This document shows positions 15,781-64,000 of a DNA stretch of 64,000 nt, piece after piece. The stretch's first letter is position 1. The number at the start of each line of letters is the position of its first letter. Made by a program: the position numbers and the translations under genes. Source of the stretch: Climacium dendroides (taxonomy: Eukaryota; Streptophyta; Bryopsida; Hypnales; Climaciaceae); assembly GCA_950106755.1 (NCBI GenBank), contig OX467086.1, positions 18,804,001-18,868,000 of the forward strand, read 5' to 3'. Below the pieces are notes generated by a model. The model was not told the DNA's origin. It was given only the letters and a program-made list of their open reading frames with translations, and did not search any database.

Positions 15781-15799
15781 AAAACAAATAGATGAAGCA

Positions 15800-15925
15800 C
15801 ATGAAGTGGCGGCTAGGATTTCAAAACCCTAAAAAATAGCAGCTAGGGTTTTAAAACCCTAAAAAATGGCGGCTAGGATTTCAAGATCCTCAAAAAACAA
15901 TGGCTAAGATTTTACAATTTTAGGT
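15800..15925. repeat. ~32-bp tandem repeat
   Basis: Three to four units of GGCGGCTAGGATTTCAAAA with CCCTAAAAAAT between them, partly degenerate. Confidence 0.7.
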
Positions 15926-16530
15926 TGCCCAAATTTTTAGGGGGATAACCGGAAAAAAACTTAAAAAAAAACGTGATAAAATGTCCATGTCATGTAGATC
16001 ACCTCTTCTATAGATGGCCCAAAGATGGAAAAAATTTACTATAGAAAAACATGACTACAAAATATGATTGCAAAATATGACTAATTAGAAAATATGACTA
16101 ATTAGAAAATATGACTCTATATTATGACTAAAGCAAAAATATAACTTGATATTCTTTAAACATGAAAATTGACCGCATTTTACTTGGGTTGCCCAAAAAA
16201 ATTGATTATTGTACAAATGTGACTGCAAAATATGACTAGAGGAAAATATGATTGCCAAATATGACTAGGCATTCCCCAAGTATGTTCCCTAAGAAGTATT
16301 TTTCCGTTCCCCAAGCATGTCACTATGGTTCCCTAAGAAGTATTTTGCCATTCCCCATGCATGTATACTATACACCCATGAAGTACAAAGGCAAAATATG
16401 ACTAGCAGTCATATTTGCAGTCATGTTTTTTCCAAATGTTTTGAAATCCAAAAATATAACTGCGAGCAGTCGCTAGTCATCCTTAGTCATATTCTTGCAG
16501 TCATAAAACATTCAAATCCTAGTAGTGTCA

Positions 16531-27283: not shown

Positions 27284-28975
27284 TCAAGGGCCGCCGACAG
27301 TTTGGCTTTTCTTGATCCTTCCAAGAGTAACCCACCCCGAATTCCGTACCACAGCTTTCGTTGAAGTGCTTGCAACCTCCGGCCGTTGAATTCTGGCAAC
27401 TTCAGGATTGGCAGCCTTCGGTTCTACAACCGGCACTTGTTGAGCCCCCTGTTTCCTTCTCCGACGCTGACTGCTTTTCCTAGACGCCTGAATGCTACGC
27501 TCTATCTCTATGGCCTGCGAGAAGTCCCAAATCCGGACTGTCTTCTCATCCCCCGCACTCACCACCCGATCTGCACCTAAGTCTACACTAAAGGAGCAAT
27601 GATGCGTGCCAGGCAAGAAACGCTGCACAGTTTCTTCCCCTACCTTCCCCACAACTTGCCCCGACCCCGCTCCAATCCGTGCCCTTGCAGATGGAAGCCT
27701 CTTCCCACTCCCACTGGCTTTCTCCATGATCTGCCGCACGTCCATCATGGCCACACTCCCATCAGCAGAAGCAGCCACCAGCCACGGATCCTCAAAGGCC
27801 AAGGAATGAATCGCCCCACGTTGCAGCATCCAAACTGCAATTGCATCCTCTACAGTCCGAAGTTTACTGCATCCGCCACTACGTCGCCGCAAGGTTCGAT
27901 CATCAAACATGCGCACAGCACCATCCTCACCACCTGTGAACACAAAATGGCCCGACTGATTGCCCTGAACTGCATAGGCCTGTCCCACATGCGCACCTGC
28001 AAGCATCCGGTGTTGGCCCGTTTCCACATCCCAGCTATAGACGTGGCTCCCTGCAGTGCTGAGAATGCGCCGTCCTCGTGGAACTAAGGCCCACACCCAG
28101 TCGTTGTGCAGAAACTGAGTCACACTGCGGAGTGTCGTTCGGTCCCACACCCTAATAGACATGTCCCACGAGCCGCTGTAAATGTTGGCAGCGTCGAGCC
28201 CAAGGCATGTAATGGGACCGTTGTGTCCATAGAGACAAGTTTCAGCTCCACCCCAAATCCCTGCAACGTCAAAGAGCTGTGGACATTCCGGAATGGATCG
28301 CCAGAGACGAATCACAGCATCACTGCCTGCAACTGCTAGAAGCTCCATGTCTACAGCAATTGCACGCAGAGTCTCCCCCAGAGGCCGCGAGCAAACCAAA
28401 GGGAGACCTTCCTCCAAGTTCCAAACGCGCACAACCTGGTCGTAGCCGGCTGTGATGATGAGATTGGCAGCAGGAAGAAGACGAATGCAGCGCACTGCGG
28501 CTGTGTGGCCATGGAGCATATCCACTTGAAAGCGTCCCATTAAAACCTTGCATCGCTCTTCGCGCGCCATGTAAAGCTCCCGCCATGACTTGGAAGGCGA
28601 AGGTGCTGCAGGGGGGCCGGGGAGGCCCCAACGCTCGCAGTAGAAATGCTTCCATCCGTGGCTGTCAGAGGCTAAACGCCGGAACAGGACACAAGTACAG
28701 GAGAGGAGGCACAAGGCGCGCGCGTCCAAGTGGGAGAAAATCTCGAGGATGAGCGCGGGGGGAAGCTCCAAGAAGGGGCAGTGGTCGGGGTCAGGGAGGG
28801 AAGGGTTCAAGGCTTTACTAGGGTTGGTGTTGTGGGATTTCACCACTTTGGAATAACTCTGCTTGTGTTGGAGAATGCGTGTGGTGAGACAAGGGGTGGT
28901 GGTGGTGGTGTCATTCCAAGCATCATCGGCTGCTCCATCTTCCGTTTTCCAACCGACTTGAGAGCCCAAGGCCAT
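27284..28975 (-). CDS. F-box/WD40-repeat protein (FBX2-like)
   Basis: A single uninterrupted frame of 563 codons from ATG at 28,973-28,975 to TGA. An F-box lies at about residues 68-112 (FLELPPALILEIFSHLDARA). It is followed from about residue 155 by seven WD-type blades, for example GHTAAVRCI...YDQVVRVWNL, GHNGPITCL...SWDMSIRVWDR and GTHHCSFSV...DEKTVRIWDF. The C-terminus is basic (SSQRRRRKQG). F-box/WD40 proteins are substrate receptors of SCF ubiquitin ligases: the F-box binds SKP1 and the propeller binds the target. The layout and length resemble Arabidopsis FBX2 (At5g21040), linked to phosphate-starvation responses; I am moderately sure of this orthology. The gene is much GC-richer than its surroundings. 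The intact frame suggests it is active. Confidence 0.9.
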   Translation of the reverse strand: MALGSQVGWKTEDGAADDAWNDTTTTTPCLTTRILQHKQSYSKVVKSHNTNPSKALNPSLPDPDHCPFLELPPALILEIFSHLDARALCLLSCTCVLFRRLASDSHGWKHFYCERWGLPGPPAAPSPSKSWRELYMAREERCKVLMGRFQVDMLHGHTAAVRCIRLLPAANLIITAGYDQVVRVWNLEEGLPLVCSRPLGETLRAIAVDMELLAVAGSDAVIRLWRSIPECPQLFDVAGIWGGAETCLYGHNGPITCLGLDAANIYSGSWDMSIRVWDRTTLRSVTQFLHNDWVWALVPRGRRILSTAGSHVYSWDVETGQHRMLAGAHVGQAYAVQGNQSGHFVFTGGEDGAVRMFDDRTLRRRSGGCSKLRTVEDAIAVWMLQRGAIHSLAFEDPWLVAASADGSVAMMDVRQIMEKASGSGKRLPSARARIGAGSGQVVGKVGEETVQRFLPGTHHCSFSVDLGADRVVSAGDEKTVRIWDFSQAIEIERSIQASRKSSQRRRRKQGAQQVPVVEPKAANPEVARIQRPEVASTSTKAVVRNSGWVTLGRIKKSQTVGGP

Positions 28976-30826: not shown

Positions 30827-31095
30827 TCAAATAAATGAGAATTAGAGTGAGTTATATGATAAGGTAAATAACACTATAGAACCATAATACTAAATTTCAT
30901 TATTAGAATAGTGAGGGGGGTATTACTTGCTAGATCCAAATCCTATAGTGTTTTGAAGCCCAAAATAAATTCCAAATACTCATATCTAAAGCAAGCTATA
31001 ATCTTCACCTTCAATTTTTTGTAATAAATTCAACCATGGGATCTTTTATATAACTTTTTGAAAAGTATCCATTGATTGCAAGATCAATGTACCTA

Positions 31096-31472
31096 CATCA
31101 CAAAGTATAGACCCTACGATTTGTCAATAGTTATCATGTGGTTATTGTTGTTTCATGGGTTCGCACGTTAATTATAATTTATCACATCATTACGATGCAT
31201 TACTTCGCATCGTTATCGCATCGTTGCAATGCATTACTTGCAATTGCATCGTAACGAAGCATTACTTTGCATCGTTATCGCATCGTTGCAATGCATTACT
31301 TGCAACTGCATCGTTATCGCGTCGTTGCAATGCATTACTTGCAACTGCATCGTAACGATGCGAAGTAATGCATCGTAATGATGCGATAAATTGTAATTAA
31401 CGTGCGAACCCATGAAACAACGATAACCACATGATAACTGTTGACAAACCATAGGGTCTAAACTTTGTGATG
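31096..31472. mobile_element. Palindromic MITE with internal minisatellite
   Basis: Inverted arms of about 130 bp start CATCACAAAGT(A/T)TAGACCC and end with the complement (GGGTCTAAACTTTGTGATG). TA flanks both ends, as expected for a mariner-type target duplication. The centre holds repeated GCATCGTTATCGCATCG and TTGCAATGCATTACTTGCAA units, so parts of the centre also pair with the arms. There is no coding capacity; open frames here are by-products of the repeat. Confidence 0.85.
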
Positions 31473-31474
31473 TA

Positions 31475-34400
31475 AACATTAAAAACAACAACCTTTTGTG
31501 GTCTTTCCAAAGACAAAGTTTGTTCTTTTCAAAATTTAAAAAAAATGTGTTTGCCCCACAACTTGTGCATTTTAGTCAAAAAGTTGGAAAATGGATTGAG
31601 AAATAAATTAAACGAAAATTAACCAATATAGTTTCATATTTATTTCATCTTTGAAAAAATCTTGAAAGTAGAAGGTGGTATAAAATGAAAGAAAATTCTA
31701 AATTGCTTATAACATTGACTATAATTGGGCAATAAATTGAAAATTTTCAATCCTAGTAGGAAGAATGTAGGAAAGAATTTTAAAATTTGAGTTTCAAAAT
31801 GAATTTAAGTGCTTTTTCTACCTCCATTGCCCGCAAAGTAAAATTCTTAGCATAACTTTTATCTAATTAGTTGAAATAGAATCATTCATTGGTTTTTGTG
31901 TAGGCATCAATCTATCCAATGATATAAAACTTAGTAATACTTTTTTGAAATGTAGTTTTAGCTTCTTGCTTTGACATACAACTTTTTAAAAATTCATATG
32001 ACTATTGCAATACATATCGGCATGACATGAAACTATGCTTCAAATGTAAAATATGATGATTAGTTCGATGCCACAAATCACCACTCTAATTCTCGCTCTA
32101 ATTATTTTCCTTAATCTCCCAAAGTGAACACTCTAGTATCCATCACCTACTACAAAAAGGTTATTTTTGGTTCTTGAATTGCCACATTGAGTTCAATGTT
32201 AGTATCTTAAAGATGAGTCACCATAAAAAGGTCTAAATTGACCTTTTTTAAAACTTTTGGGGGGAGGGGAGGGTCATATAAAGAATGAGTTTTTCATTTC
32301 AAGGCAAGAATAAAATACAAGGCCACCATCCTGGTTATAGGACAAGACAAGGGACATCTTTCTAAACTTTTAGGTTTCAATGATCACTTCTCTTCTTTGA
32401 ACAATTTCTCATTTTTTTTCCTTAACAATTAGTTTTTAAGCATTATATAGAGTCTTCTAAGTCTTGGAAAACTCTCACAAAAAAATTGTGAAGACACTAA
32501 ACCATAGTTTCAAAGTATGAAGAATAACAAATATACAATTGAACTTCTGAAAATGCTATAAATAAGTTACATGGGTAAAGATATGGCATCAAAATTTGGT
32601 TGAAAAAGACAACGCATTTGTTTGAGGTTCCTATTGCATGGACAAAGCAATTATCCATTTACAATCCAAAGTGAGATTCTAATGTGTGACTTATAAAAAA
32701 TGAGATAGTTCAATGATCATTAATTCAATGTTTCAAGCATATAGACAACTTGTCTAAAAAAAGAATACAAAGAAGCACCAACATTTTAAACATTTTTTCA
32801 AAGAAAAGTGAGCTTGTGAAGCGCAGCTGCCTTGTTTTTCATAGGGCCAAAAAAATGATTTTAGTGAATTTGAATGCTTATATCTTGCAATCCACATGGT
32901 GCTTATTTTTGAAATTTTAATCACACGTTTTTAAGTCAGCATACTACAAGATCCTATGGTTACATGTGTCAAAAAAAATTATTTTTTCAAAAATTTGGTA
33001 CTCGTACTAAAAATGGCAGTTTTGAAGCATTTTTGGTGAAAACATAGTGAAGGAACTTTAGGAGTTAAAGTAGAAAATCAAGGTTTGGCAAGATTAAATA
33101 AAATTTAATTTATGCTATTTCGGCAACCATTCAAAATTGAACAAAGTATAGGCATTTGGCTAGGTTTAAATACATCATTTAATGATTTTAAAGAAAATAA
33201 TAAGTTATTTGTTCAGAAAATGCATAGAATATTGAAATAAGATTGCCATAAATGACCATTGTATGTCTCTAAAGAAGGAAATTGTAATTCCTCCTTAGTC
33301 AATTGCAATTTCCAAATATTAAGTAAGGTAGGGGGATAATTTCAAAAAAAATAGCATCATTTAAAAATATATATTTATTGACAAACCTGCTAGTAGGATA
33401 TGGTAGCTAATGACTGAGTACTAAGAATTGTGGGACAATAAATATTACATTGGTGCATGCCTCCAAATATGTACTTATAGTGACAAATACAAGTGCTCAT
33501 ATACAAGGTACAAAGAAAACTCGCAGCTACCAATAGTTACAACTTACAAATGTGGTCCAGTCCTTATTTTCACTTCAAGAGATTTTGCCTTAAGTGTGGC
33601 AATTTAACTTATTCTTAAATGGCGAAGGAGGCAATGAGGAAACCAATTTTGAAGCATATTGGTGGCAACTTAGCTAAAATTTGAAATAACTATATGAATT
33701 GGTGATTTCTCATTTGGGGGGCAACATAGAGGGCGAATTTTAAGGTGTGATTGGAGTGAAATTGATACAAGATTGTTCTTGTGCACCTCCCCTTTTGGGG
33801 GAACATAGTCTAAGACATAATTAGTATAGTATGGGTAAGACATGAGGACTTTGTGGTGATGAGATTTCACCAAAATTGAATGATGTCAATCTTCAATGTT
33901 CATAAGTGCACACGCTAGGGAGACCTATTTGCTCAAATGTGGACATAAAATAATGTATTTTTAGATTCCCCTCAGTAGGAATATGCCTACCTATTGTGAA
34001 AATAAATTATAGAAATTTCAGCTTTAAATCATTAGTTTAAAGTACTCAATAGTACTCAAAACTCCTAAACCCCCAAAGTGATAAATTAGCAAATTTGACC
34101 TTATATATAAAATTATTTTTTATTTTTTTTGAAAAATAAGGAATAGGAAACATCTACAAATTAAAGAAAAATTCAGGTTGATTGGATGCATGCTTCAAAA
34201 GTTATAACGGAGGACAACCTAGCATTTGGCAATACACTACAAAAGGTCCGGTCTTTCTTACAACCACCCTACTCTAAAATTCCATGGAACAAATTCTTCT
34301 CTTTCATAAGTTTCATTGCACATATTTCATTTCAATTGTTGAGAAGTTGGTCCTATATCAAAGATTCTTGCAATTCTACTATTGATAACTATTTGGTGAA

Positions 34401-47539: not shown

Positions 47540-48500
47540 CCTTCTTAAACCTTAATTGTTAATGGCCACACTTTTTTGGGATTTAAATTTCCTTCTATTA
47601 TATGTTAGGAATTACTCAAATTGTAAAAAAATTCTTGCTTTTCTAGACCCTAGCCATTAACAACCATGCTTTTTTGAATTCCAATTGCTTGCATCATATG
47701 CTAAGATTTGGTCAAATATTACAATTTATTTTTCTTTCCCTAATAGACAACCATTAGTAGCCATGCTTTGGAGGATTCAAGTTTGTTTCCAATATATGCT
47801 AAGAATTTGATCAAATGCATCTATTTTTTGCATTCTCAATGCACAGTTGTTAATGACCACATTTTTTTGGATTTTAGTTTGCTTGTGCTATATGCTAAGA
47901 TAAAGTCAATTGTTGCAATTTATTTGCCTTCTTAATAGATAGTTGTTAATAATCATGCTTTTTTGGATTCAAATTTGCTTCCAATATATGCTAAGAATTG
48001 ATCAAATGTTGTAATTTTTGGAATCTTTTTACACTAGTAGAAACAACGTCACCGAAACAACAGAAATTTCTGCGTTTTCTACTAGTGTTAATGGCCAACA
48101 GATAATGGCCATGCTTTTTTGGATTCAAGTTTGTTTGCATTATATACTAAGATTTGGTTAAAATAATACTACAATTTATTTTAATAGACCACCATTAATA
48201 ACTAAGCTTTTTTGTATTTAGGTTTGCTTCCAACATATATTATGGATTTGGTTGAATGCTACTATTTTTTGGCCTTTCTAGTACACAACTATTAATAGCA
48301 ACTTATTTAGGATTACTTCTAATATATGCTAAAAATGGTCAAATACTACAATTTTTGGGTCTTCCTAATGGACAACCATGAACGACCATGCTTTGGGGGA
48401 TTCAATTTTGTTTGCACCATGTGTTAAGATTTGGTCAAATGCTACAATTTCTTTGGTCTTCCCAATAATGAATAGTCATTAATGGTTACTATGTTGAATC
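47540..48500. repeat. ~100-bp satellite-like tandem array, about nine units
   Basis: Units carry CATTAATGACCATGCTTTTT-like, GGATTCAAGTTTGCTTCCAA-like, ATATGCTAAGATTTGGTCAA-like and TGCTACAATTT words. Anchors near 47,650, 47,752, 47,848 and 47,943 give periods of 95-102 bp. The units are diverged, so the array is old. A 56-bp MITE interrupts it at 48,032. Confidence 0.8.
48032..48087. mobile_element. 56-bp CACTA-like MITE
   Basis: It starts CACTAGTAGAAAC and ends GTTTTCTACTAGTG, flanked by TTA on both sides (48,029-48,031 and 48,088-48,090). It shares the word AACGTCACC with the MITE at 45,252. Its interior is only about 30 bp. Confidence 0.78.
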
Positions 48501-50330: not shown

Positions 50331-52018
50331 ATATTCTTCAATTTTTGGAAATAAATCGTGAGCCTTGGCTATATTTGCAAATAGTATATCTTCAATGTGT
50401 TTTGAGTGTTTATTTTTACGCTATTGCTTGTCATTTCATACTTATAGTTTTCTTTGCTTGCATATGCAACTTTCTTTGTTGTATACGTTGGATTCTTTAT
50501 TGGTATAATATGGAATTTTCCTAGTTAGTGTATGTCGGTTATTTTGTTGGTATACTATGCAGTTTATATTGTTGATGTATACAAATTCTATTTTTTATTG
50601 TTGGTATGTAAATTGCTTTTCCAACTATCTTTATTTATTTTTGAGTGAAAGTATTATTCTCATCTCTAAACTTTATTGTTTTGAGTGTGTATATGCATGA
50701 GGTTGTATTATACTATTATACAATTCTATAGATATTGTTGACTAGTTTGAAAACCAACCTTAAAAGGTGAAAAAAAAATTAAAACTTATGTTTACTATAG
50801 GGGGGCTTTAAAAAATAAGAAAAAAAATTATAAATACAATATGGACTACTTTCAATCAAACTTGTAGAAAAATAGAATTTTAATAGGATAGATTAGGTTC
50901 CTTGAAAAAAATTACATAACTTCCATAAAATTATCATTGCTTTACAAGAAAGTGCCTCAATTTTTATTAATGAAAGAATTTGAGGCTAAATATAGGTCAA
51001 CTTCATTTTTTTGATTCTATGGGGGTTTAGATGCCATTGCAGCATCCTAGCTCCATCATTGAATAATTTTAAGAAATTAAAAATTTAATTGAAACATGTA
51101 CTGTCTAATTAATGGACGCAACAATAAATTTTGATGATGATTATATATAAAAATTTGAAAGCAAACACAACATTAATATCAAAAAGCATATCTATAGTTG
51201 TCATCTATTAAAAAGGTTTGAACTCTTCTAACTTTTGAGTACAAATTTTGTCCCCTAAAGCACTAAGGTATGTGCCCATTACTAAGGTATATGCTAGGCA
51301 AAAATCATCAAGAACTACAACTTTCTCAAACACAATTAATGAGAATAAAAATAATTTAAAAAAAATTAAATGTACAAAATTGTATTAGAGTAATATGGAA
51401 AATTCAAAATGTTTGGAAAATAATTTGAAAACTTTGAATGTATAGATAATATGATTATGGCATTTGAAAATTTTAAAAATAGATTTTTTAGTTTTTTTTC
51501 ATCAAAGCCAACAAAATTTGACTTTTCTTAGAGTGAAATTTTGTACAACAAAGGTTAAGTAAGGTTTTCTTAAACTAGAAGCCTAAAGCCATGAGAGCAA
51601 TTTCTTCATATTATTTTTCAACTAATAGGAATTTCAAATAATGAGAACACCTAAGAATATAAATATACAATTGAAATTTTAAATTTAAAACTAAGAATGA
51701 TGTACACAATATTTTTGTTTTATATAGCGAAAAAATGCCCAAAATTCTAAACCCAAAAAATACATAAAAATTCCTCCCAAATTGTAGGTTTACAAACTCT
51801 TGGGCTCATGCTTTAAGACTCACAAAATAGCACTTTTCCAAAATCTCAAGACAAAGAAACAAAAACATGTTGAGCATGAAGCTCTTCCGCTGCTTGCCAC
51901 TTTAAGTGAAAAAATTACTTAAATTCCTCAACCTTAGTGAGTTTGGGCTCCATTGTCCCATGACTATTGCTTTCTAGCCTGAAAGTAAGCAAATGGTCAA
52001 CATGATGTTATTGAATAG
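50331..52018. other. Non-coding, AT-rich
   Basis: No conserved frame. CWATWG density is at background until about 51,960 and rises sharply from 52,060. Confidence 0.45.
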
Positions 52019-53217
52019 TGTAGATGGTTTTCTACAATGGATGAACCATTGAGGAATTCCTATAGTTTAAAGTTCGTTCTCAGGGAGGCAAAGTGCTATA
52101 GGTAATTCTATAAGGTAATGGATTTACTCCATTCCCAGGTTATGCACAATAGAAAGCGGGGAAAATATTTGATTCTACTCTCACCATGGATATAACCCAG
52201 AGTTTATTACAATTGAGCCAGGTAGAGAACTTATCCATTATTATCTTCACTCCATAGCTTTAGCTTTCACCAACTCTCCAAACATAGTCTTCAATTGATT
52301 CTCTTCGCCTTCTTACTGTATCACCGTTTGCTCTTATTCTCCCAGCGTGTACTCCGAGTCCGATTGATTTTACAAATCTCCTTCCTTAATTTTACCAATT
52401 GATTCCTCTCAAAATGTTCTCACAGTTACAATAGAAATCCTCAAATTCTGATTGCTCTAAACTATAGATCTTTCTCTCAGTTGCTGATTCTATTGACTTA
52501 TCCCATTCCATCCATCTCATCAGATCTGCACAATTGCGAAACGAATCTATAGATCTACCCACAGCCACCAACTATTTCCACTATGGTTCCATGTACCATC
52601 CAGCATATCAACTACTATTGTTTCTCACAATAGAAATTCAGCACTCCATACATGACTCACAATTGACATCCAATTAATTCCATTCACACACATTTGACAA
52701 ATCCAACACAATAGACAATATACTCCATCACACATAGCATGCACAAATGCCAGATTTGCAATTCATCTCCACTTTGTATTTCATCACCGAAAATTACAAT
52801 TGATCCTCACATTCACTTCCACAGACTCCTCTCTGTAATACTATTGATTCAGCACAATAGAATTAGCACCAAGACTATAGACACTAGAGTTCCTCTCACA
52901 CAAACTCCACTCGAACTATCGCTCACACAAACTGCCGGCCTTCCTGCCGCAGGAGCTCTGGATACCCTCTCCAGACTGAGACTTCCAGAGCACGAACAAT
53001 TGATTTCCACCTGCTTCGCTGCAACCGCTGGTAACCGCCGCAATAGATTACATCCATTCATCCATTTTCACAACCATTGATGATAAACAACAATAGAGTT
53101 CACTTAACTGGTAATAACCGGGTTTTAAGCCTGCCATCATGCTAGTACTATAGAAAAATTGAAAAATTAACAAAATTTTCAGTTTCACATATCTCCTCTA
53201 TAGATTATATGACTACA
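52019..53217 (-). repeat. Candidate 3' LTR
   Basis: On the plus strand it begins TGTAG and ends CTACA, a 5-bp inverted terminus with the usual TG...CA. A purine tract (minus strand) lies just outside its right edge. The dense CWATWG signal starts just inside its left edge. The partner LTR is beyond the window, so the borders cannot be confirmed by alignment. Confidence 0.45.
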
Positions 53218-53220
53218 TAG

Positions 53221-53230
53221 CCCTCTTCTC
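53221..53230 (-). other. Candidate polypurine tract
   Basis: The minus strand reads GAGAAGAGGG, three bases before the candidate LTR. This is where the plus-strand DNA primer of an LTR retrotransposon should lie. Confidence 0.4.
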
Positions 53231-53386
53231 AGTTAGTTGCGTCCCCGCAACACAGAAATTAATCTAAGGCACCTGCAATATTCACAACCAACGAAACAGC
53301 GTCCATAGATTCGGACTCCCCACTGACCACTCAAAATCGCAACATCAACTGACTCAATTGCACCCTGGAAATCACAGCCCCACACA

Positions 53387-55897
53387 CTACTTGGCAGCTT
53401 TCACCGTTGAGGTAGACGCCTCCCCCAAAACACGATCCGATTGACAAGTCGAATTGTTATTGTGCCACTCCAGCGGCATCCTCAATAGTTCGCCGCTCCC
53501 CGCTTGTAAGATTTTCCAATTGTGAAGATCCATACTCTTGTGCAATTGCTGATACCCAATCCTACGCCGATCCAGCTCCTGATTCTTCTGAAGGCGGTGA
53601 AAAGTATCCATAGCTGCATAACGACTGCCTTTATACTCGTCCAAGATTACATTATGTGCCCCCTGCAGGAAATGCATGGTACACATCAATTCGAACAATC
53701 GTAACCGCCTGGCAGGCATATACTTGATCTTCGTATAGATATAACCGTCCTGCCCTTGTCGCCCTCCAATCCGCGGATCCAGGATCATGTCAAACTCGCG
53801 ACACCAGTGAGCCAAGGCATGGCAAAACACTGCTTGCCTGAAACAGACAGGGTCTTTGTGATGCCTATGCTTCAAGAAGAACCTCATAAAGCCTTCCACG
53901 CAATTGTCTACCGAATCCCAGGTACCATCGATAAGGCACCAATTGTACCAGGGTGTGTCTAACCGATCTGTTGCCCTCCATAGATATCGTCTTGGAACAT
54001 TGCACAATCGTGAATCTCGAGACACCAATAGTGGCAACCCCGGTTGTCGCACTCCATGCTCCTGATGAATCAAAACTTCAATTGGGTGCAATAGCAACTC
54101 TGTCTGGCTCCCAAAATCCTTTCCGATCTACAATAGTGCCTCCCACGATAGAGACTCCGGTTGATGATCAGTCTTGATAAAAAGATTCTCGTATCTTCCG
54201 AGAAATCGATTGTCCTCTATTGTAGTCTCAAAAATTAGACTCCAATCGTCCAAACTCGGCCCCACTCCATAGAGACTGGGCGGCCTGACCACCACCTGAA
54301 ACGCATTCTTCCATTTGCTATCGTTCTCCAGGTTAAACGGCAGCAATGCCGCAGGCCCCATTGACGAAACCATCTGCTTCAAATGGCCTTCATGAAATCT
54401 ATAGGTATAAAAATATACCGATGGATGAACATCAAGCTGCATTGCCCGCACCACCCGCTCTTTGCACAATCGAATCATCTCCACCACCCATTCCTCGTCC
54501 TTAAAAATTGGCAGCAATTGCTTAAGTCGGCCTTTCCACGCATCAATAGCCTCGGAGTCCCACGATCTCTCATGACTATCGAATCCCTCCATAATGGGAG
54601 CATTCCAGCTGCTACAAACTGGACTTCGCCGCTCTGCACCCATAGCTTGCTCCTACACTCTCCTCACACCTTGCTGCCGCTCCACTTCGTTACAATAGAG
54701 AAAAGTTCTTGCAGCCACATCCCCCATCAATAGATATGCATGAAATGGGTCCTCCACCATAAACTCCTGCCTCATCAACATCTCTGCAAAAAGGTTCTCC
54801 ATTCTATAGACCTGACTCTCTGCCCACAATCGCTCAAAACGCAAGGGAGTTAAACAATCACCTCTCTGGACACCCAATACCAAACAAAACACCTCACAGT
54901 CCCATCGATAGGCCTGCTCTATGCGCTGCACCGGTGGCAAATTCTCCATTAAGCCCAATAGATCTTCAATTGGCAGCATCTCTTTCCTCCTTGAGGCAGA
55001 ACCCGTAGCATCTATAGATATTCCTTCTGTGTCCTTATCCTCCGAGTCACTATCGGTCAGAACTCGTTTTTGCAATTGCGTGACCTGATATTGCAATTGA
55101 ATCTTCTCCTGCTCCAACTGGGCAGACCTCTGGCATTCCGATCGTATCTCCTCCTTCAGCTGGTCCACTATAGCGCCCATCTCCTTCCAAGAATGCTGAG
55201 CTTGACAATGTTGGCGCTCCAGGTCTGTATGGGCTTTCTTCCGTTTTAGAAGTACCTGATCTCCCTTTTCCTTCTCCTGCTGATGGCTCGCTTTCAGCTT
55301 TTCCAATTGTTCCTCCACTTGCTCGTTGGCGGCCTTCCAGGTTCCCAACACATCCTTCCAATCGTCCTTCTCCCGCTGGTGGGCTGCACCAACCTCCTCC
55401 CATCGCTGCTTGAACCATTGTTCCCGCTACGTTGCAGCTACCTCCATTGTTTTCACTTTCTCCTCCAATTCAGCAATGCGGTGCTCCTCCTCCGTTTGTT
55501 GCTGCATTTCCTTGTCCAATAGTTCCAATTCCTCCTGCATCTTCAACTTCTTGGCCAATAGTTCTGCCTTGGATGGCTTCCTTCGTGATATGGCCTCCAC
55601 ATTGAATTCCTCCTTCACTTTCATGCCCGGAATCAGCATCAAGCTCCTCCCATCCGTCCCAACTGATACGCACAATTGAACTCCTGGACTCACAATTGCT
55701 GATGGAGAAGCGGCAGCAGATGTCGGCCCTTCTTCCAACTTGATCTTCTTCACTTGATTCCAGGTGATCGCACCCTCACGAGTGCCAATCAGTAGACAAT
55801 CGTTCTCCTCTTCCTCCATAGTATCCATCGATACCTCCGGCGCAACCTGCAATAGATCCTCTGCCCCCTCTATAGGTGTCTACGACGCTCCCTCCAT
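53387..55897 (-). pseudogene. 837-codon coiled-coil ORF with four internal TAG codons
   Basis: ATG at 55,895-55,897 opens one frame down to TAG at 53,387-53,389 with no frameshift. It contains four internal stops, all TAG, at codons 6, 157, 415 and 590 (55,880; 55,427; 54,653; 54,128), and no TAA or TGA. About codons 118-275 are a strongly predicted coiled coil, Glu/Lys/Gln-rich (ELELLDKEMQQQTEEEHRIA). An acidic patch (DSDSEDKDTEG) follows. The last ~400 codons look globular, with many Trp and charged residues (WYNWCLIDGTWDSVDN). No signal peptide or membrane segment is visible, unlike env-like ORFs of Athila or SIRE1. I do not recognise the family. It is labelled pseudogene because of the stops, but readthrough or suppression is possible: the frame is otherwise clean. 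Confidence 0.6.
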
Positions 55898-57526
55898 TGC
55901 AACCCTAATCGATTACTGACAATCGCGCTCGAAAATCACACACTCTCGAAATTCATTCACAATTGCTCCGTTGCTCACTCCCACTGCTCAGATCCTGAAA
56001 CTATAGACTCTCGACACTCGGATGCTCTCGGATGCTTCAATAGTGCTTACGATAATCTTCCCAACTTCACCTTTCACTATTGCTTCAGCCCTCTTTCCAC
56101 ACTATAGACCATCACTCCCCTCTCAGGTTGTTACAACCACTTTCGCTATAGTTCAAATCCTCACTTTTCTAAAGACGGCGGATACTTGTCATCTATTGGT
56201 CTGTCAGTTCCGACGCGAACTCCCAGGATTCCATTCATTCCTGTCCTATAGATTTGAAAAATAAATACTTGCATTTAAACCTTACACTATAGAGATCTCC
56301 CACAAATAACTCACGAATTGACCACTCCCTCCCATACCATTGTATTAATTTAATTTTTTTTAATAAATTTTTTTTTTTTAATCATGTTTTTTTTCTTGTT
56401 TTCATTTTTTTCATTTTCTTTTTCTTCCATTTTTTTAAAATTTAATTAAATTAATTTTTTTTTTCTCAATATCTATAGTCATCGTCAATACTGAACTATA
56501 GCTTCACCGTCATATCCTTTACTATAGCTGAACTGAACTATCGATTGGATCTATAGTCACTAGCTCTCTTCTATCAGACTATTGATATATTTTTCTATTG
56601 ATTAATAATTATTAGCATACTGTTTGTTTTTTTTTTTTTTTTTTTTTTTTTCAATATATATTTTTATCATGTTTTTGCTATTTTGTTCATTTTTTTTCTT
56701 TTATTATTATTATAATTTTAATTAATTAATTTTATATTATAATTTTTTTTTAATTTTTAGCTATTTTATCGACCAATATCTATAGTCTTAAATTAGTACC
56801 GAACTATAGTTATACAGAACTATTACTATTGATTACATCTATAGCTGAACTTCTCTTCCCTGCCGAACTATAGATATTCTGCTAATTTTTGTAATGTATT
56901 ATTATTTATTTTAACTTGAATGTGTAATTTATTTATTTTATCATGTTTTTCTTATTAGTTAATTTTTAATAATTTAAAGTTTAATTTTTCTTGTTCTTTT
57001 TTTTTTTTTTTTTTAAATTGTCTTTAAATGTATTGTTTGTTTGTTTTTTCTTTTTTTCCATCCAGTGTCTATAGTGCTCTTCAGTGCCGAACTATAGTCA
57101 ACTTCTATTGTACCTATCACTATAGCTACAAGGTTTGTCTCCTTACTTACTGACTGTTGATATATTGTTTTAATCATTTTTTTCTATATAATTTTTTTTT
57201 ATATTTGTTACACTCATCATTTTCTCTCTTAGTTTACCCCATCCCATACTTTCTTTTCTCGCCACTCTTAATTAATCCAAGTCATGCACTATAGAGAGTA
57301 TGATTATATTTATTCTATATGTATGATTATGAATTTAAATTAAATTGAGTGCTTATTCTGAAAATTAATCTTCTTCCGCCTTCCAAAATGACTAATAAGG
57401 CCAAATTGACTCACTCAACCATTCAAACTCAAAAATTCGAAAAATTTGAAATCACTAACCAACCTAAAACATATTGAAAAATATTAATCATTCCTTCTCC
57501 TCTTTCTAGGATAAGCCGACCCCGGC
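55898..57526. other. Spacer between pol and the 3' ORF
   Basis: Non-coding on both strands. 55,898-56,280 is mixed-composition DNA with CWATWG motifs. From 56,340 it is extremely T-rich on the plus strand (A-rich in the element's sense), punctuated by motif-dense blocks. Confidence 0.6.
56467..57170. repeat. Three ~300-bp units: motif block plus T-rich filler
   Basis: Blocks at about 56,467-56,610, 56,771-56,890 and 57,061-57,170 share TCTATAGT, then GAACTATAG, then TATTG(A/T)-type words in the same order. Aligned CTATAG sites at 56,473, 56,780 and 57,069 give spacings of 307 and 289 bp. Poly-T-rich filler separates them. Confidence 0.7.
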
Positions 57527-60500
57527 TTAATTATAATAAAGTTTAAGTCTATATCCATTGATTCGGGTAGGCAAGAATTTACCTCCAAAATCTTTCAATT
57601 GTGCAGAACCATTGGGATTAATATCTGTGACTTCATAAGGCCCCAACCAATGCATTTGCAATTTCCCCGGGAATTTAAAGAACCTACTATCATACAATAG
57701 AACTAAATCTCCAACTTTAAAATTTTTAGCCCCCAATTTACTATCATAAAAAGACTTACGACGCTTTTGCATAGCATATGTATTTAAATAAGCATCCCTT
57801 CTCATCTCATCCAACTGTTCCAATTGGGCCAACCTAACTTTTAAACTATTGTCTTCATCTAATCTATTTTCAATAGCTATTCTTAATGAAGGAATTTCAT
57901 ATTCTATAGGTAAGATGGCCTCCTGACCATATACCAATTGAAAGGGGGTAAATTTAGTGGTTACCTTATAGGCAACTCTATAGGCCCATAATGCGCCCCA
58001 CAATTTGTCATCCCAATCTGTGGCGGACTCAGCTATTGTTTTAGTCAGTATTTTACAAAGTATCCCATTGGTTTTCTCTGTCTGCCCATTAGCTCTCGGA
58101 TGGTAAGGCGATGTCTTCCTATGTTTTATTAAAAATGTATTAGTTAATTGTTCTATCGTTTCATTAAGAAAATGGGTTCCACGGTCACTAATAAGCTCAC
58201 GTGGACACCCAAACCTAGAAACTATATTTTCAAATAAAAATCTAGCCACAGTATGAGCATCGTCATTTCTAGTTGCCATAGCTTCCGCCCACTTCGTGGC
58301 ATAATCAGTGGCAACCAAAATATATCTTTTACGACCCCTTCTAGTGGCCGGTGCTATAGGACCCATAAAGTCTATCCCCCACTTCTCAAAGGGGGCTAAG
58401 GCTAATATAGGTAACAATGGCATAGCGGTCGTTGGTGTGGGGCGTCCCACACGTTGACACGGGTCACATTTTCGAGCATATTGGTGAGCATCATGAAACA
58501 TTTTGGGCCACCAATACCCAGATGTTAAAGCCTTTCTAGCAGTAACATCTCCCGCAAAATGACCCCCACATGCATCCATATGACAGCCCTCTAAGATCAG
58601 AGGCACTTCATTACTATAAATACATCTTCTTAGTATGCCATCTTTTCCTTGTTTATACAATACTTCCCCCAATAAGGTGTAAGGTCCACATTTATATAGA
58701 AAAGCTTTCACTTGTGCGGGACTAAGCCCCGTAGGTGTAATATTAGACCTTAAATAATTTAAAATCTCAGCATATTCCGGTTGGATAACATCAACCTCAA
58801 AAATATGTGCATCCGGCAATTGATCATCTAAAGGTTGCAAAGCCTCTATGGCTAATGGTTCTAACCGGGAAATTTGATCGGCATTTCCATGGCTTTTTCC
58901 CGGTCTTACCACTATTGAAAAATCAAACTCTTGCAACAATAGAACCCATCGGGCCAATCGGCCACTTAAATCCGGTTTATTTACTAAATATTTAAGGGCA
59001 TCGTGATCCACATAAAAAATAAAGGGATAACCTAACAAATAATGGCGAAATTTTTGCACGGCAAAAATCATGCCTAATGCCTCACGCTCAGTCATAGTGT
59101 AATTTTTCTCAGCAGCTATTAGCTGTCGACTTGCATAATAAATAGGATGGTCTAAATTTTTATTATCTTTTTGACTCAAGACACATCCTAAAGCTACGTT
59201 TGAAGCATCGACATAAACATGAAACGGTTTTGACCAATCCGGTGGGACCAACACCGGGGCATTATATAATTTTTCCTTTAATGTATTAAAAGCATTTTCA
59301 CACTCTTTATCCCAAGTGGGTCTAGCACCTACTTCCAATTTTTTTAGTAATTTAGTTAAAGGAGAAGCTATAGATGCATAGGAACCAATAGCTCTTCTAT
59401 AGTATCCAGTTAGGCCAAGGAATCCCCTTACCTCCTTCACAGTTTGTGGTCTAGGAAAATCCTTAATCAATTGTATTTTATCTGGATCCAACTCAATCCC
59501 TTTTTGACTTACAATATGACCCAATAGTTTACCAGAGGGCACCACAAATTGACATTTACTAGCATTGAGAGAAATGCCAAATTTATGGCATTGCTCAAAA
59601 CATTGGGCCAATTGATCAGCATGGTCTGACTTTTTACCATAGACACAGAAATCATCAAGGAAAATTTCCATGAATTTCCGCAAAAATGGAAGAAAAGCCA
59701 CCATCATCAATCGTTGAAAAGTGGCCGGTGCATTGCACAACCCAAACAACATTACCACTGCGGCATATGTGCCCCAATCGGTGGTAAAGGTTGTTTTCAA
59801 TTGATCCTCCAAGGCTAACCGTATCTGGTTATAGCCAGAAAAGCCATCTAAAAAAGAATATACCTCATGGCCTGCCACGGCATCTAAAATAGAATCCGTG
59901 AAGGGCAATGGAAAATAATCTTTTTTAGTTGCCTCATTTAATTTACGGAAATCCTGGCATATTCTAATTTTACCGTTCATTTTAGGGACAATAACAATAG
60001 CACTGACCCATTCACTATAGGGAACCGGGTAAATAAATCCCATTTCTAGCAATTTCTCAATTTCCTCCTTGACTAACAAAGAATACTTAGGATTCAATCG
60101 ACGTTGTTTTTCCCGGACTGGCTTTGCATCTTCTTTTAAATTAATATGATGCTGACATATTTCTGGGGGAACCCCCCGAAGGTCTCTATAGGTCCATGCA
60201 AAAGCAGAGATATGTTTCTTAAAAAATCTCTCCCAATATCTGCGTTCTTGCCTAGACAATCGTTTACTAATTTGAATTTTTTTAGGAATCTCACCCTCGC
60301 TTAACAATAGATCACAGCATTCATCTTGAGGTACATGCTTAGCTATAGGGACTGAATTCATAAAATCACTATGGTTGAGATCACCATCATCAGAACTATA
60401 GACTGGTTCTTCTTCCGATGACTTCACCCCATAGACTATCCTGTCAGTTAACCAAGCCCCTATTGTTTTATCAGAGTCATCATCTATTGAACATGGGATC

Positions 60501-63500
60501 ACGTATTCCCCTGGACTCACATTTCTATAGATCATTTTCTTTGATTTGTTAAGGGACCCTCGAGCATCCTTCAGATGGATTCTATTGGCCTCTAATTCTT
60601 CCGTATCTGTACTATAGCCCACATCACTAGTAACATCAGAGGAATACCATTGGGTTTCTCCCTGGTATGAAGAAGGGTACATATTCAATTTAATTTTATT
60701 ACGACCTTGTCCTATAGTTAAAATACCCTTACTCCAGTCATCCTTAGCATGGGCTTGGTACAACCAAGGTCGTCCCAACAATAAAGGATATGACACATTT
60801 GGTGTACTTGGCTGAAAGACTAGAAAATCTATAGGGTAAACAAGGCCTGATATAGTAGTAAGAACCTTAGGTAATATTCCTAATGGCTTTACCCTGCTTT
60901 GGTCAGCCATATGCAATATTAATTTAGTTTCTTGTAGGCCGGTCAATTGTAAGCTGGACATTGTATCCACATTCATCAAATTCACACTTGACCCGCCATC
61001 TACTTGCACTCCTTGTATAAGTAACCCATCAATTTGTACATCTATTGTTGGGGCACCAGGGTCAAGACTTAATGAGACTTCATTTACTATCAATCTCGTT
61101 CTCTTCCTAATCAAAGACGATTGAAGAAGGGAACGACATTGAGGTGCCACTGCCAACAATTGTTGTAATGTAATGTCAGCTTTTGATTTCCCTAAGTCAG
61201 TCAATATATCATAGGGCTCTATCCCACTCATTATACTTATTGGTTTTAATTTCCTTCCTTTCCTACCCTTTAACGATTTCATGGGTAATTCTATAGGTGA
61301 ACTAATAGGAACCTCTGATACAATTTGTGGTTTCCAAGTTGTATCCCCTTTATCCAATTGTTGTAAGCCCTCACTCCTAATAGGAGTTCTTCTAACAGGT
61401 TCTATAGATGCTTTGGGTAATCTCACAGAAGTGAGATTATGACCCAAATTGATCCTGTTAGGACCAGCTTCTATTGTAGCTGATTTAAAATTTAAGGCTT
61501 TATCTATGGATGGTGTTACTGGCCATAATTCCTTAGGCATACCCATAGATGAGGTACCAACGTCTTCTGGAACTATAGTTGACTGCCTGGGGGTCCACTC
61601 TATAGATTTCAAGCCTTTATCTATAGTGCCCAACAAAGAAGGCTGATCTGCCTTATTTGGAATAACCTCAGGGACTGTCTCTATAGTTACTGTTTTTCTC
61701 TTGACCGGTTCTATTGGTTCACTCACATCCGTGGAAGAACTATTGTCTGTCTGCATGGCATGTGGGTCCAGCAAATCTTGCTTAGCCTTCATGCCACGAG
61801 TACGGACTCCATGGACATTTTTCAATTTAAAATTACCCTTAAAATTATCATCCTCATGTTCTTTAACTACATCAATCCACCCAACATTCCTATTTTGATT
61901 GGAACTTTTAGAATTATTATTCATTGGATAATCATCAGGTAATAATACCAATTTAGCACTATTGTCTTTGGAATTATTATTATTGTAATTATCTCGAGGA
62001 CCATCTCTCCTAGGACCATTGCACTCTTCAGCAGTATGGCCATTTTGTTTACAATTGCCACATAAGGGCACATATGGGACATCTGCCTTTGCATTTGTAC
62101 AATTGCTTCTAATATGACCACGTTGGTTACAATTGAAACAAACTATGTTATCCCAACTAGGATTTCTACCGCCATAAGTGGGATTGCCTTGATTGGGATT
62201 TCCAAAAGGCATCTGGTTCCACCCCATATTTTGGTTGGTTGGATTTCTCGGTATAAATCTATTGGGATTATTATTATACCCACCACCGTTGAAATTATTA
62301 GAATTAAAATTGGGAGTTACATTATTAGGTGGGGCATAATTATTAAAATTTGGATTACTATTGTAATTAGGATTATTATTAAAGTTTTGATTATTAGACC
62401 TAGGATATCTGGGTCTTCTATTCCATCCACCCCCACTAGCATTATTCCAATTGTCATTATTACCCCCCCAATTTTTGATGTTGGGATTATAATCATTATC
62501 TATTTGATAGACTACTTGATTTTGTTGATTCCTATTTTGTCCATTTTTCCCTCTATTATTACATCTATCACTATCATGATTACCACCACAATGGAAACAT
62601 TTAAGAATTATTCCTTGTGGGGAAGGACAATCTATATTAAGGTGTCCTTGACCCTTACAATTGGTGCACCACATGTTTGCTCTCTCATTTACCGGTTGCC
62701 CTTTTTGATTTCCCGCTTTTGCTAAATTCACTTTTAAGTCTTGTATAAGACTTGTCAATTCTTGTATAACATTTGTAGGATTTGGGCTAGTCCCCGTCTG
62801 TGGTGCCACTACTGGATTCACTGGCATAGCCGGTGGACCTTGAGTATAAGTAGGCGACATTGACGGTGGAACATACTGGACTGACTGTATAGGAATTGTT
62901 GGGGCCATAGGTGTTTGGGGTACCGTTGCATATAGCTCAGGATTACTCCAAATATTTTCATATAATTTAGCTCTATTGTAGGCCTCTAGTAACATGGTCG
63001 GTGAAACCTCTTTTACATAGCCTTTTAATTTAAAGGGAATTAACCCTCTAATAAAGATTCCTAATTTCATGGCGTCATTGAATCCATGACCCGTAGGTAA
63101 ACGAAGGACAAGGTCCTCCATTCGCCCATAATAATTATCTATAGTTTCGTTGGTGTTCATTTGCATTTCATGCAATGCCTCACTCACTCGCTCATCATAA
63201 CCTATAGGTCTAAAATGTGCTATAAAAGCATCCCGTAAAGCTTGCCAATCAGCAAAATGACCCAACGGTTGCCTATGGAACCATTGCTGAGCATGATCTT
63301 CCAATGTTGTTGGAAAAATTGCATACCAATGAACATCGATCCTAGCGTTATTCGCATTACATGCGGTTAAAAATTTGCTCACGTGCTTATCTGGGTCATT
63401 TCCGATATGCCCATGAAATTTAGGCAATGGAACCAAAGAAATGGGCCGGTCCTTAGGCTGACCAGCCCTCATATTTACTGGAAGTACTGGGGCGGCCATC

Positions 63501-64000
63501 ACTACAATAGACTCAATTGATGTACTATCAATAGATTGTAAACTACTATGGGATGATTGAGTAGAAGAACTATTGCCCTCTCTCTCGGTATCCTCCAAAT
63601 CACTTATTGGATCTGCTGTGGACCCACTAGGTGTACGTAAAATTCTATTGCTGTCTTCCCAGGAGATCAATTTTTTATTATCTATAGATTCTTCAAATAA
63701 TTGATTTATACAACTTAAAATAGTTGTCCTAGTAAAAACATTGCCTTTATTCAAGGACAAATTATTCTCACTACTATGGTAACTCTCCGCTTCACTTCCT
63801 TTACTCTCGTTAATATCAATAGATGTTAAATCATCTAGTTTTACACTCTCTTTTTGTTTATCTTCCTCACCCAATGTTCCCTCTGGAGTTGGCAATTGGG
63901 ACACACAAATACCTTCGCAAAAGGTATGTGTTATTCCAAAACTAGAAGAGGGTCCAATAGAAGATGCTTCTTGAAATAAATTAGGTTTAACTATAGATTC
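57527..64000 (-). CDS. Ty3/gypsy gag-pol polyprotein (5' end outside window)
   Basis: One frame is open from the window edge to TAA at 57,527-57,529, at least 2,157 codons with no stop. The first possible start inside, a GTG at 63,904, is not needed because the frame continues upstream. Counting from 63,904: gag core at about 140-315; four zinc knuckles near 412, 434, 588 and 615 (CTNCKGQGHLNIDC, CFHCGGNHDSDRC, CFNCNQRGHIRSNC, CGNCKQNGHTAEEC) around an Asn/Gly-rich linker; protease with VDGGSS near 968; reverse transcriptase with FLDDF near 1,413; RNase H with YVDAS near 1,567 and DHDALKYL; integrase with an HHCC finger near 1,775 and the core from GIDFMG through ISDRGTHF. The C-terminus (LPTRINGYRLKLYYN) has no chromodomain and recalls Athila/Tat-type elements. 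The intact frame implies recent activity or selection. Confidence 0.92.
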   Translation of the reverse strand, partial: ESIVKPNLFQEASSIGPSSSFGITHTFCEGICVSQLPTPEGTLGEEDKQKESVKLDDLTSIDINESKGSEAESYHSSENNLSLNKGNVFTRTTILSCINQLFEESIDNKKLISWEDSNRILRTPSGSTADPISDLEDTEREGNSSSTQSSHSSLQSIDSTSIESIVVMAAPVLPVNMRAGQPKDRPISLVPLPKFHGHIGNDPDKHVSKFLTACNANNARIDVHWYAIFPTTLEDHAQQWFHRQPLGHFADWQALRDAFIAHFRPIGYDERVSEALHEMQMNTNETIDNYYGRMEDLVLRLPTGHGFNDAMKLGIFIRGLIPFKLKGYVKEVSPTMLLEAYNRAKLYENIWSNPELYATVPQTPMAPTIPIQSVQYVPPSMSPTYTQGPPAMPVNPVVAPQTGTSPNPTNVIQELTSLIQDLKVNLAKAGNQKGQPVNERANMWCTNCKGQGHLNIDCPSPQGIILKCFHCGGNHDSDRCNNRGKNGQNRNQQNQVVYQIDNDYNPNIKNWGGNNDNWNNASGGGWNRRPRYPRSNNQNFNNNPNYNSNPNFNNYAPPNNVTPNFNSNNFNGGGYNNNPNRFIPRNPTNQNMGWNQMPFGNPNQGNPTYGGRNPSWDNIVCFNCNQRGHIRSNCTNAKADVPYVPLCGNCKQNGHTAEECNGPRRDGPRDNYNNNNSKDNSAKLVLLPDDYPMNNNSKSSNQNRNVGWIDVVKEHEDDNFKGNFKLKNVHGVRTRGMKAKQDLLDPHAMQTDNSSSTDVSEPIEPVKRKTVTIETVPEVIPNKADQPSLLGTIDKGLKSIEWTPRQSTIVPEDVGTSSMGMPKELWPVTPSIDKALNFKSATIEAGPNRINLGHNLTSVRLPKASIEPVRRTPIRSEGLQQLDKGDTTWKPQIVSEVPISSPIELPMKSLKGRKGRKLKPISIMSGIEPYDILTDLGKSKADITLQQLLAVAPQCRSLLQSSLIRKRTRLIVNEVSLSLDPGAPTIDVQIDGLLIQGVQVDGGSSVNLMNVDTMSSLQLTGLQETKLILHMADQSRVKPLGILPKVLTTISGLVYPIDFLVFQPSTPNVSYPLLLGRPWLYQAHAKDDWSKGILTIGQGRNKIKLNMYPSSYQGETQWYSSDVTSDVGYSTDTEELEANRIHLKDARGSLNKSKKMIYRNVSPGEYVIPCSIDDDSDKTIGAWLTDRIVYGVKSSEEEPVYSSDDGDLNHSDFMNSVPIAKHVPQDECCDLLLSEGEIPKKIQISKRLSRQERRYWERFFKKHISAFAWTYRDLRGVPPEICQHHINLKEDAKPVREKQRRLNPKYSLLVKEEIEKLLEMGFIYPVPYSEWVSAIVIVPKMNGKIRICQDFRKLNEATKKDYFPLPFTDSILDAVAGHEVYSFLDGFSGYNQIRLALEDQLKTTFTTDWGTYAAVVMLFGLCNAPATFQRLMMVAFLPFLRKFMEIFLDDFCVYGKKSDHADQLAQCFEQCHKFGISLNASKCQFVVPSGKLLGHIVSQKGIELDPDKIQLIKDFPRPQTVKEVRGFLGLTGYYRRAIGSYASIASPLTKLLKKLEVGARPTWDKECENAFNTLKEKLYNAPVLVPPDWSKPFHVYVDASNVALGCVLSQKDNKNLDHPIYYASRQLIAAEKNYTMTEREALGMIFAVQKFRHYLLGYPFIFYVDHDALKYLVNKPDLSGRLARWVLLLQEFDFSIVVRPGKSHGNADQISRLEPLAIEALQPLDDQLPDAHIFEVDVIQPEYAEILNYLRSNITPTGLSPAQVKAFLYKCGPYTLLGEVLYKQGKDGILRRCIYSNEVPLILEGCHMDACGGHFAGDVTARKALTSGYWWPKMFHDAHQYARKCDPCQRVGRPTPTTAMPLLPILALAPFEKWGIDFMGPIAPATRRGRKRYILVATDYATKWAEAMATRNDDAHTVARFLFENIVSRFGCPRELISDRGTHFLNETIEQLTNTFLIKHRKTSPYHPRANGQTEKTNGILCKILTKTIAESATDWDDKLWGALWAYRVAYKVTTKFTPFQLVYGQEAILPIEYEIPSLRIAIENRLDEDNSLKVRLAQLEQLDEMRRDAYLNTYAMQKRRKSFYDSKLGAKNFKVGDLVLLYDSRFFKFPGKLQMHWLGPYEVTDINPNGSAQLKDFGGKFLPTRINGYRLKLYYN

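Follow-up and report, generated by a model that had tools for sequence, protein, structure and literature searches.

Proteins encoded by transposable elements (TEs) that act on the DNA of their own family are best known from the VANDAL transposons of Arabidopsis, a group of Mutator-like elements (MULEs). Binding by VANC and the resulting hypomethylation are reported there as established, with family-specific motifs (passages of Hosaka et al. 2017, PMC5735166). The same passages describe the VANC targets as a directional motif, YAGTATTAY, arranged as tandem repeats of the same orientation in non-coding DNA, and assign the domains DUF1985 and DUF287 to VANC (PMC5735166). The anti-silencing system is also covered by Sasaki et al. 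(2023, PMC10398659), and structures of VANC together with target DNA are referred to as unpublished work in a meeting report of 2026 (PMC12859917). Among long terminal repeat (LTR) retrotransposons of plants, Athila, Tat and Tekay elements are described as carrying additional open reading frames (aORFs; passages of PMC11728184). Here, we analyze a 64,000-bp stretch of the Climacium dendroides genome (C34:18804001-18868000, hereafter the window) within an assembly of 412.6 Mb and 123 contigs, which was also the genome searched. The window carries most of a Ty3/gypsy element on the minus strand, 13,560 bp in total, with gag-pol and an extra open reading frame (ORF), and the element is saturated with the hexamer family CWATWG (CTATAG, CAATTG, CAATAG and CTATTG). 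We suggest, at a probability of roughly 0.72, that CWATWG may be a self-recognition mark read by the protein of the element's own extra ORF, most likely against silencing.

The part of the element inside the window (52019-64000) contains 146 CWATWG motifs, a density of 12.2 per kb; the expectation from a second-order Markov model built on this sequence is 25.0. CTATAG (52 vs 4.5), CAATTG (38 vs 8.3) and CAATAG together with CTATTG (56 vs 12.2) all contribute, and CWATWG words occupy ranks 1, 2 and 3 among all hexamers of the element. Including the leader, 152 motifs stand against 17.5, 25.8 and 61.7 expected at Markov orders 1, 2 and 3, respectively, and the full element with both LTRs counted holds 176. 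An initial annotation of the window had reported the family as recurring through LTR, spacer, extra ORF and gag-pol, and all four regions indeed carry it (Table 1). Its hand counts were reproduced, with 24 in the 1,199-bp LTR, 29 for 53,401-55,900 (recounted as 29 in 53387-55897) and 34 for 60,001-63,000, to which the 250-bp bins add up. The 2-kb bins around 31,001-33,000, which it had named as a low-density stretch, hold 6 motifs each.

The initial annotation had also named beforehand a second-order background and unrelated genomic DNA as grounds on which the excess could fail. The excess survives the former and is absent from the latter. Twenty random 10-kb stretches of the genome contain 0.6-2.1 CWATWG per kb, and the pooled 200 kb contain 270 compared to 338 expected, hence CWATWG is without genome-wide excess. 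The remaining 52,018 bp of the window hold 125 motifs (100 expected). Motif boundaries coincide with the LTR ends, the window copy is inserted in motif-poor DNA, and the flanks of three related LTRs have 1.6-3.2 motifs per kb. One random stretch (L009, 7770-8760) includes an isolated 1-kb island with 13 CWATWG in 990 bp, mostly CAATTG. The island has no significant blastn match to the element and is perhaps a solo LTR of another clade. Simple repeats were rejected as the source of the motif after a repeat scan, and the sole direct-repeat family of at least 60 nt found within the element is T-rich. Helical phasing was likewise rejected, as there is no 10-11 bp period. The composite CTATAG-N4-CAATTG was not used as a signal because its 107 genome matches correspond to chance (about 59 per strand from pooled frequencies).

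Most sites (96 of 146) lie within gag-pol and the extra ORF, and coding constraints do not account for them. Synonymous-codon shuffles (1000 each) leave 26.0 (sd 3.7) of the 67 motifs in gag-pol and 7.2 (sd 2.2) of the 29 in the extra ORF. A codon or amino-acid effect is thereby rejected as the cause, in agreement with the initial annotation. Density within gag-pol is highest in the linker between protease (PR) and reverse transcriptase (RT) with 20.5 per kb and at the integrase C-terminus with 16.0, and lowest in the integrase core (1.9) and at the RNase H-integrase junction (3.7). The earlier claim of high density in the poorly conserved gag-PR-RT linkers thus applies to the PR-RT linker and fails for the gag-CCHC linker, which has 5.7 per kb.

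Altering the outer C or G, or the central AT, abolishes the excess (CTATAA 2 vs 5.6, TTATAG 3 vs 5.6, CAATTA 2 vs 7.9, TAATTG 1 vs 7.9). Positions two and five are freer, with CGATTG and CAATCG together at 18 vs 4.1, and weaker excesses are found for CTATGG and CCATAG (19 vs 8.2) and for CAATGG and CCATTG (18 vs 11). Some one-base neighbors thus exceed expectation, and the tolerated motif is somewhat wider than CWATWG. We take the site to be double-stranded with two-fold symmetry because the two asymmetric words are about equally frequent overall on the sense strand of 52019-64000 (26 CAATAG, 30 CTATTG) and because CTATAG is the most enriched word (11.6-fold compared to 4.3-4.9 for the others). 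The same observations bear on a signal in RNA, whereby the words would be recognized in the genomic RNA to allow its dimerization or its packaging by Gag. A motif spanning the whole transcript would suit such a signal, as would the regional imbalance of the asymmetric words on the sense strand (1 CAATAG and 11 CTATTG in the extra ORF and 3' untranslated region, 6 and 1 in the spacer). However, overall parity and the prominence of CTATAG are what double-stranded recognition predicts, and the motifs of other clades are also palindromes, which makes an RNA signal very improbable.

Relatives of the extra ORF are accompanied by different motifs. For three relatives, L053, L051 and L052, with 73%, 41% and 39% extra-ORF identity, respectively, we compared 1.3-1.5 kb of 3'-terminal sequence using first-order expectations. 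All three seem to be the 3' termini of elements of one kind, given the shared hairpin before a purine tract and an LTR-like start. The stretch just downstream of the ORF match in L053 contains CWATWG 20 times compared to 1.8 expected. L051 is enriched for CRATYG (26 vs 1.6) and the eight-base palindrome CCRATYGG (12 vs 0.1), and CTATAG, CAATAG and CTATTG are all at zero. L052 carries the nine-base odd palindrome CCDANTHGG (20 vs 0.2) and a single CWATWG (1.3 expected); 200 kb of random genome DNA likewise contain 20 CCDANTHGG. Across the loci analyzed, the motif thus co-varies with the extra-ORF clade around a common half-site theme CNA/TNG, with CWATWG at 73-100% identity, CCRATYGG at 41% and CCDANTHGG at 39%.

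Because the clade motifs were named after looking, we ran an unselected scan of 64 palindrome classes. A CNA/TNG class ranked first in all 12 segments tested from such elements, and 11 of these exceeded every one of 152 background windows. CNATNG was the best class in the window LTR, extra ORF, spacer and gag-pol linker, as well as in L036-L039, L053 and L051 (z 8.2-11.6). For L052 the best class was CNANNTNG (z 9.9) followed by CNANTNG (8.4), both stemming from its nine-base motif. A conserved pol segment reached z 3.5, inside the background range. The background windows had a median z of 2.3 and a maximum of 5.9, and one of the eight highest was CNATNG, at 4.4; two scan windows over the L009 island, which gives CNATNG at 4.9, were excluded from this set. 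Two gypsy elements met by chance and having no tblastn match to the extra ORF served as controls, and four segments at these gave z of 1.4, 1.6, 1.6 and 2.5 (the last for CNATNG). Co-variation of motif and clade together with a shared half-site is the trace that a diverging family of site-specific DNA-binding proteins with targets in their own elements would be expected to leave. A host DNA-binding protein could alternatively read the motif, with elements gathering its sites for transcription or chromatin state and the extra ORF being unrelated. The palindromic site and its footprint-like spacing would suit any dimeric factor, and the LTR is densest in motifs. We nevertheless regard a host factor as improbable, given that gag-pol and the extra ORF are saturated and not the LTR alone, that the motif type shifts with the extra-ORF clade while retaining the CNA/TNG theme, and that random genome stretches show no CWATWG excess.

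Related copies retain motif density while positions turn over, which answers a check proposed in the initial annotation. The LTR search of the genome returned 43 matching pieces, including the window's own two LTRs, and ten LTR loci were analyzed: two near-identical copies (97-99%), five of a sister lineage and three more distant. The ten LTRs contain 18-25 CWATWG each (13.2-20.0 per kb) compared to 3.1-4.3 expected per LTR, and CTATAG ranks first among hexamers in 9 of 11 LTRs, counting that of the window. Sister-lineage LTRs match the window LTR at both ends, with a middle identity of only about 0.52. The middle nevertheless has similar densities, 22.3 per kb in the window and 17.0-21.7 in the sister lineage, with 2 and 5 sites in common in the two comparisons made. 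As the internal region of the sister element is 92.6-97.8% identical, the LTR middle has been replaced by unrelated-looking sequence that carries an equal motif load. In L032-L036, the middle cannot be aligned with that of the window LTR, while ends and internal region remain about 80-98% identical. Such an exchange would point to recombination between lineages or to template switching. In gag-pol, all 67 window motifs are kept in the sister copy despite 131 differences, and one extra site is found there. Between copies of the extra ORF, 4 sites were lost and 2 gained. The sister element occurs in three copies about 66.8 kb apart (C40:12247951-12395802), by appearance a tandem segmental duplication. 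A solo LTR (L037, with flanks L045 and L048) with target duplication CATGG lies within a decayed extra-ORF relative (27% identity).

Spacing and sequence change at the motifs were assessed in several tests that reuse sequences and are hence non-independent. Gaps of 6-10 bp between motif starts are rare, with 2 compared to 10.4 expected (P 0.0008, both LTRs counted), and five other LTRs have none (1.1-1.9 expected each). Three other extra-ORF elements, examined at their 3' ends, have minimum distances of 26, 27 and 19 bp between their own motifs. Motifs are also more even than random in 8 of 11 LTRs (P < 0.05; the LTRs are related). Avoidance of short gaps and even spacing in LTRs are what a protein footprint predicts.

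Copies differ almost solely at C/G positions, with only 6 of 3662 A/T sites differing in gag-pol outside motifs compared to fractions of 0.112 of CG, 0.090 of CHG and 0.037 of CHH sites. As this is the mark of methylated DNA, the elements likely are, or were, methylation targets. Among cytosines of the same trinucleotides (CTA or CAA), 5 of 352 differ inside motifs and 38 of 844 outside (P 0.0096, five comparisons pooled); three further pairs left outside the pool gave 3/53 vs 16/89, 0/58 vs 5/149 and 0/48 vs 0/58. Context-matched change over all motif positions in gag-pol was 1 compared to 5.5 expected, 2 vs 1.7 for the extra ORF between window and C1, and 11 vs 13.5 for the more distant pair L032-L034. 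Selection on the motif and local protection would explain an overall reduced change alike. A mutational artefact such as decay of methylated cytosines could be suspected because differences concentrate at C/G positions and because a CpG transition separates some CWATWG sites from their counterparts in other copies. Yet the outer C and G are retained, the decay products CTATAA and TTATAG fall below expectation, no comparable excess is seen in two further gypsy elements from this genome, and other clades carry other motifs. We consider such an artefact scarcely credible.

The extra ORF belongs to a large protein family. A predicted protein of 771 aa (P0001) shares 38% identity across nearly the entire frame, and two fragments from JGI data match the C-terminal part at 66% and 53%. 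A search of the window's own genome with the C-terminal piece gave 202 candidates, of which 150 are scored matches; in a few cases, one copy is split into two of these. Some groups among them have open frames of 954 aa that are uninterrupted by stops. The structure model of P0001 is poor apart from a long coiled coil at residues about 78-220 with a predicted local distance difference test (pLDDT) score of 68-85. Scans of viral contigs with the extra ORF and pol gave nothing useful. Matches with 717-aa open frames lie 0.2-0.26 Mb from the starts of four large contigs (C1:226635, C37:260047, C35:215359 and C40:228813), a location that is perhaps subtelomeric, and two more are found on C4 and C44.

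We infer that the extra-ORF protein reads the motif and does so as a dimer. The ORF would encode a protein with a coiled coil, presumably a dimer, whose binding sites in double-stranded DNA are palindromes of CNA/TNG half-sites; a dimer fits both the palindrome and the coiled coil. Selection on the element might fill its entire DNA, LTRs and coding parts included, with the site wherever the protein sequence permits. Protein clades might read differing versions of the site, varying in half-site letters, the outer C/G and spacing, so that each protein would mark only its own family. Since its action on DNA would be in trans, the protein made by one copy could also serve others whose extra ORF is broken. 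The most likely use would be to keep family members from silencing by DNA methylation, as VANC does for VANDAL, although this outcome taken on its own falls slightly short of an even chance. The self-recognition motif proposed in the initial annotation thus stands as far as the excess survives the Markov background, is absent from pooled random DNA, persists as a density in relatives whose sites have shifted, and changes in type with the extra-ORF clade, while its reader and an anti-silencing role are matters of probability.

The extra-ORF protein might also read the motif for another job, such as the handling or protection of cDNA, guidance of integration or restraint of copy number. The spread of motifs across the whole element is what a DNA-coating role predicts. 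Integration guidance is at odds with the motif-poor insertion site of the window copy and the motif-poor flanks of three related LTRs; the single case in its favor is the distant solo LTR within the relic of an extra-ORF relative. We consider these other jobs, taken together, unlikely, though far from negligible.

Several observations weigh against self-recognition by the extra-ORF protein. The motifs of L051 and L052 were defined post hoc from one 1.5-kb locus each, and they overlap with CWATWG. L051 holds 11 CWATWG, all of them CAATTG, the word common to both motifs, and the window element holds 57 CRATYG (9.8 expected) and 3 CCRATYGG (0.6 expected). Owing to linkage among the genes of an element, gag-pol varies along with motif and extra ORF, and gag-pol may be the source of the reader. 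Tests for even spacing were negative in the spacer, extra ORF and gag-pol, and L040 contains a single gap of 9, its smallest. Reduced change at motifs is not general: within the pooled CTA/CAA test the extra ORF shows no reduction (3/62 vs 5/145) and L034-L035 little (1/54 vs 2/80), context-matched change in the extra ORF between window and C40 was 8 compared to 4.0 expected, with values for LTR pairs extending from 2 vs 4.5 to 5 vs 4.1. No DNA-binding domain was recognized in the extra-ORF protein: Pfam scans covering the window's three pieces and P0001 gave it no credible domain, a search of the PDB found nothing significant (one weak match, E 0.42), and two structure models are of low confidence (mean pLDDT 44 and 46). 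The window copy has identical LTRs and an open gag-pol, yet four internal in-frame stops in the extra ORF. Three of the four stops are absent from both other aligned copies and one is common to the C40 copy; these two copies carry stops of their own at other codons. Identical LTRs combined with such stops indicate that no extra-ORF protein is required in cis. The parent copy itself probably no longer encoded the full-length protein, which is what a trans-acting function allows.

On balance, we favor a broader view, with somewhat less assurance than self-recognition itself, that a large and undescribed protein family of LTR retrotransposons may read a diversifying code of CNA/TNG palindromes. 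Lineages would rewrite their own DNA, coding sequence included, and sequence-specific recognition of self versus other would have evolved independently of VANC. If true, transposon-encoded self-recognition is not peculiar to Arabidopsis MULEs and had a separate origin in LTR retrotransposons, which account for a major part of plant genomes. The mark would then be strong enough to shape synonymous codons throughout gag-pol, and a function could be proposed for one of the many extra ORFs of plant retrotransposons to which none has been assigned. The about 150 matches in one genome would allow half-site letters and spacing to be mapped against protein changes, making the evolution of a recognition code directly testable.

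The assignment of the carrier to Ty3/gypsy follows from identical LTRs with TG...CA ends, a short target duplication, a primer site and the order gag-RT-RNaseH-integrase. The primer site resembles the one for tRNA-Asp, and the RT motif looks Athila-like. The element is young, its identical LTRs indicating very recent insertion or conversion. The initial annotation placed the element at 52019..64000; the start is correct and the end is not, as the element extends beyond the window to 65,578. A hairpin with a six-base-pair stem and GGGA loop precedes the 3' purine tract in all six elements examined (window, L042, L044, L051, L052 and L053). Its stem shows paired changes between extra-ORF clades, and the background frequency is 6 such stems in 252 kb on both strands. 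Elsewhere in the window, a cluster of AGTCATAT and its complement (14583-16485), dense also in L015 (26 in 10 kb), is apparently an unrelated repeat. Five degenerate 76-bp direct repeats lie at 47741-48441, and a 563-aa open frame at 27284-28975 is F-box/WD40-like by eye from its translation.

Table 1. Features of the motif-rich Ty3/gypsy element in window coordinates.
Feature	Position	Strand	Description
3' LTR	52019..53217	-	TGTAGTC...CATCTACA; 24 CWATWG motifs, 20 per kb
5' LTR	64380-65578 in the window frame, beyond the window	-	1199/1199 identity to 3' LTR
Target-site duplication AATAG	52014-52018	+	Precedes 3' LTR on + strand
Hairpin, six-base-pair stem, GGGA loop	53236..53251	-	Shortly ahead of polypurine tract and 3' LTR
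Extra ORF frame, 836 codons	53387..55897	-	29 motifs; in-frame stops; coiled-coil-like N-terminal part, conserved C-terminal part
T-rich non-coding spacer between gag-pol and extra ORF	55898..57526	-	25 motifs, 17 of 25 CTATAG
gag-pol, single open frame (gag, CCHC, RT, RNase H, integrase; Pfam)	57527..64000	-	67 motifs
Set of 146 CWATWG sites	52019..64000	.	Hexamer counts, bins and Markov expectation

Several known systems resemble parts of this one. In Drosophila, gypsy carries an array of Su(Hw) sites, and En/Spm carries a subterminal array of TnpA motifs. Like the present element, these are TEs with many copies of a motif, in their case a binding site that alters chromatin or methylation. 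Their sites are however confined to one non-coding region, and Su(Hw) is a protein of the host. BEN-domain repressors, known from animals, bind CCAATTGG-like palindromes, which CCRATYGG of the 41% clade resembles; Pfam found no BEN domain in the window's three pieces or P0001. A literature search of open-licence papers, judged by titles and the starts of abstracts, retrieved no description of such a motif in an LTR retrotransposon. The aORFs of plant elements are similar in being 3' extra ORFs after gag-pol in Ty3/gypsy without recognized domain or function, and the relevant passages name no DNA motif in the elements (PMC11728184). Unlike Athila aORFs, the present ORF has no Pfam match to Athila ORF1 (PF03078) or Transposase_32 (PF20167) in the three window pieces or P0001. 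The parallel with VANC and VANDAL drawn in the initial annotation would be one of function and not of descent. The present element is no member of the VANC family, since element class, protein domains and motif layout differ. VANDAL is a Mutator-like DNA transposon and the present element an LTR retrotransposon, the extra ORF (window pieces and P0001) has no Pfam match to DUF1985 or DUF287, and CWATWG is palindromic, dispersed and dense also in coding DNA, unlike the directional tandem targets of VANC. Binding and hypomethylation are demonstrated for VANC, whereas the present system is known from sequence. The two systems nevertheless share a non-canonical extra protein carried by a TE and a short motif that is dense in its own family and sparse elsewhere. 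In both, the motif differs among families, which here accompanies divergence of the extra protein, with one locus per distant clade and with CAATTG or the CNA/TNG theme still held in common.

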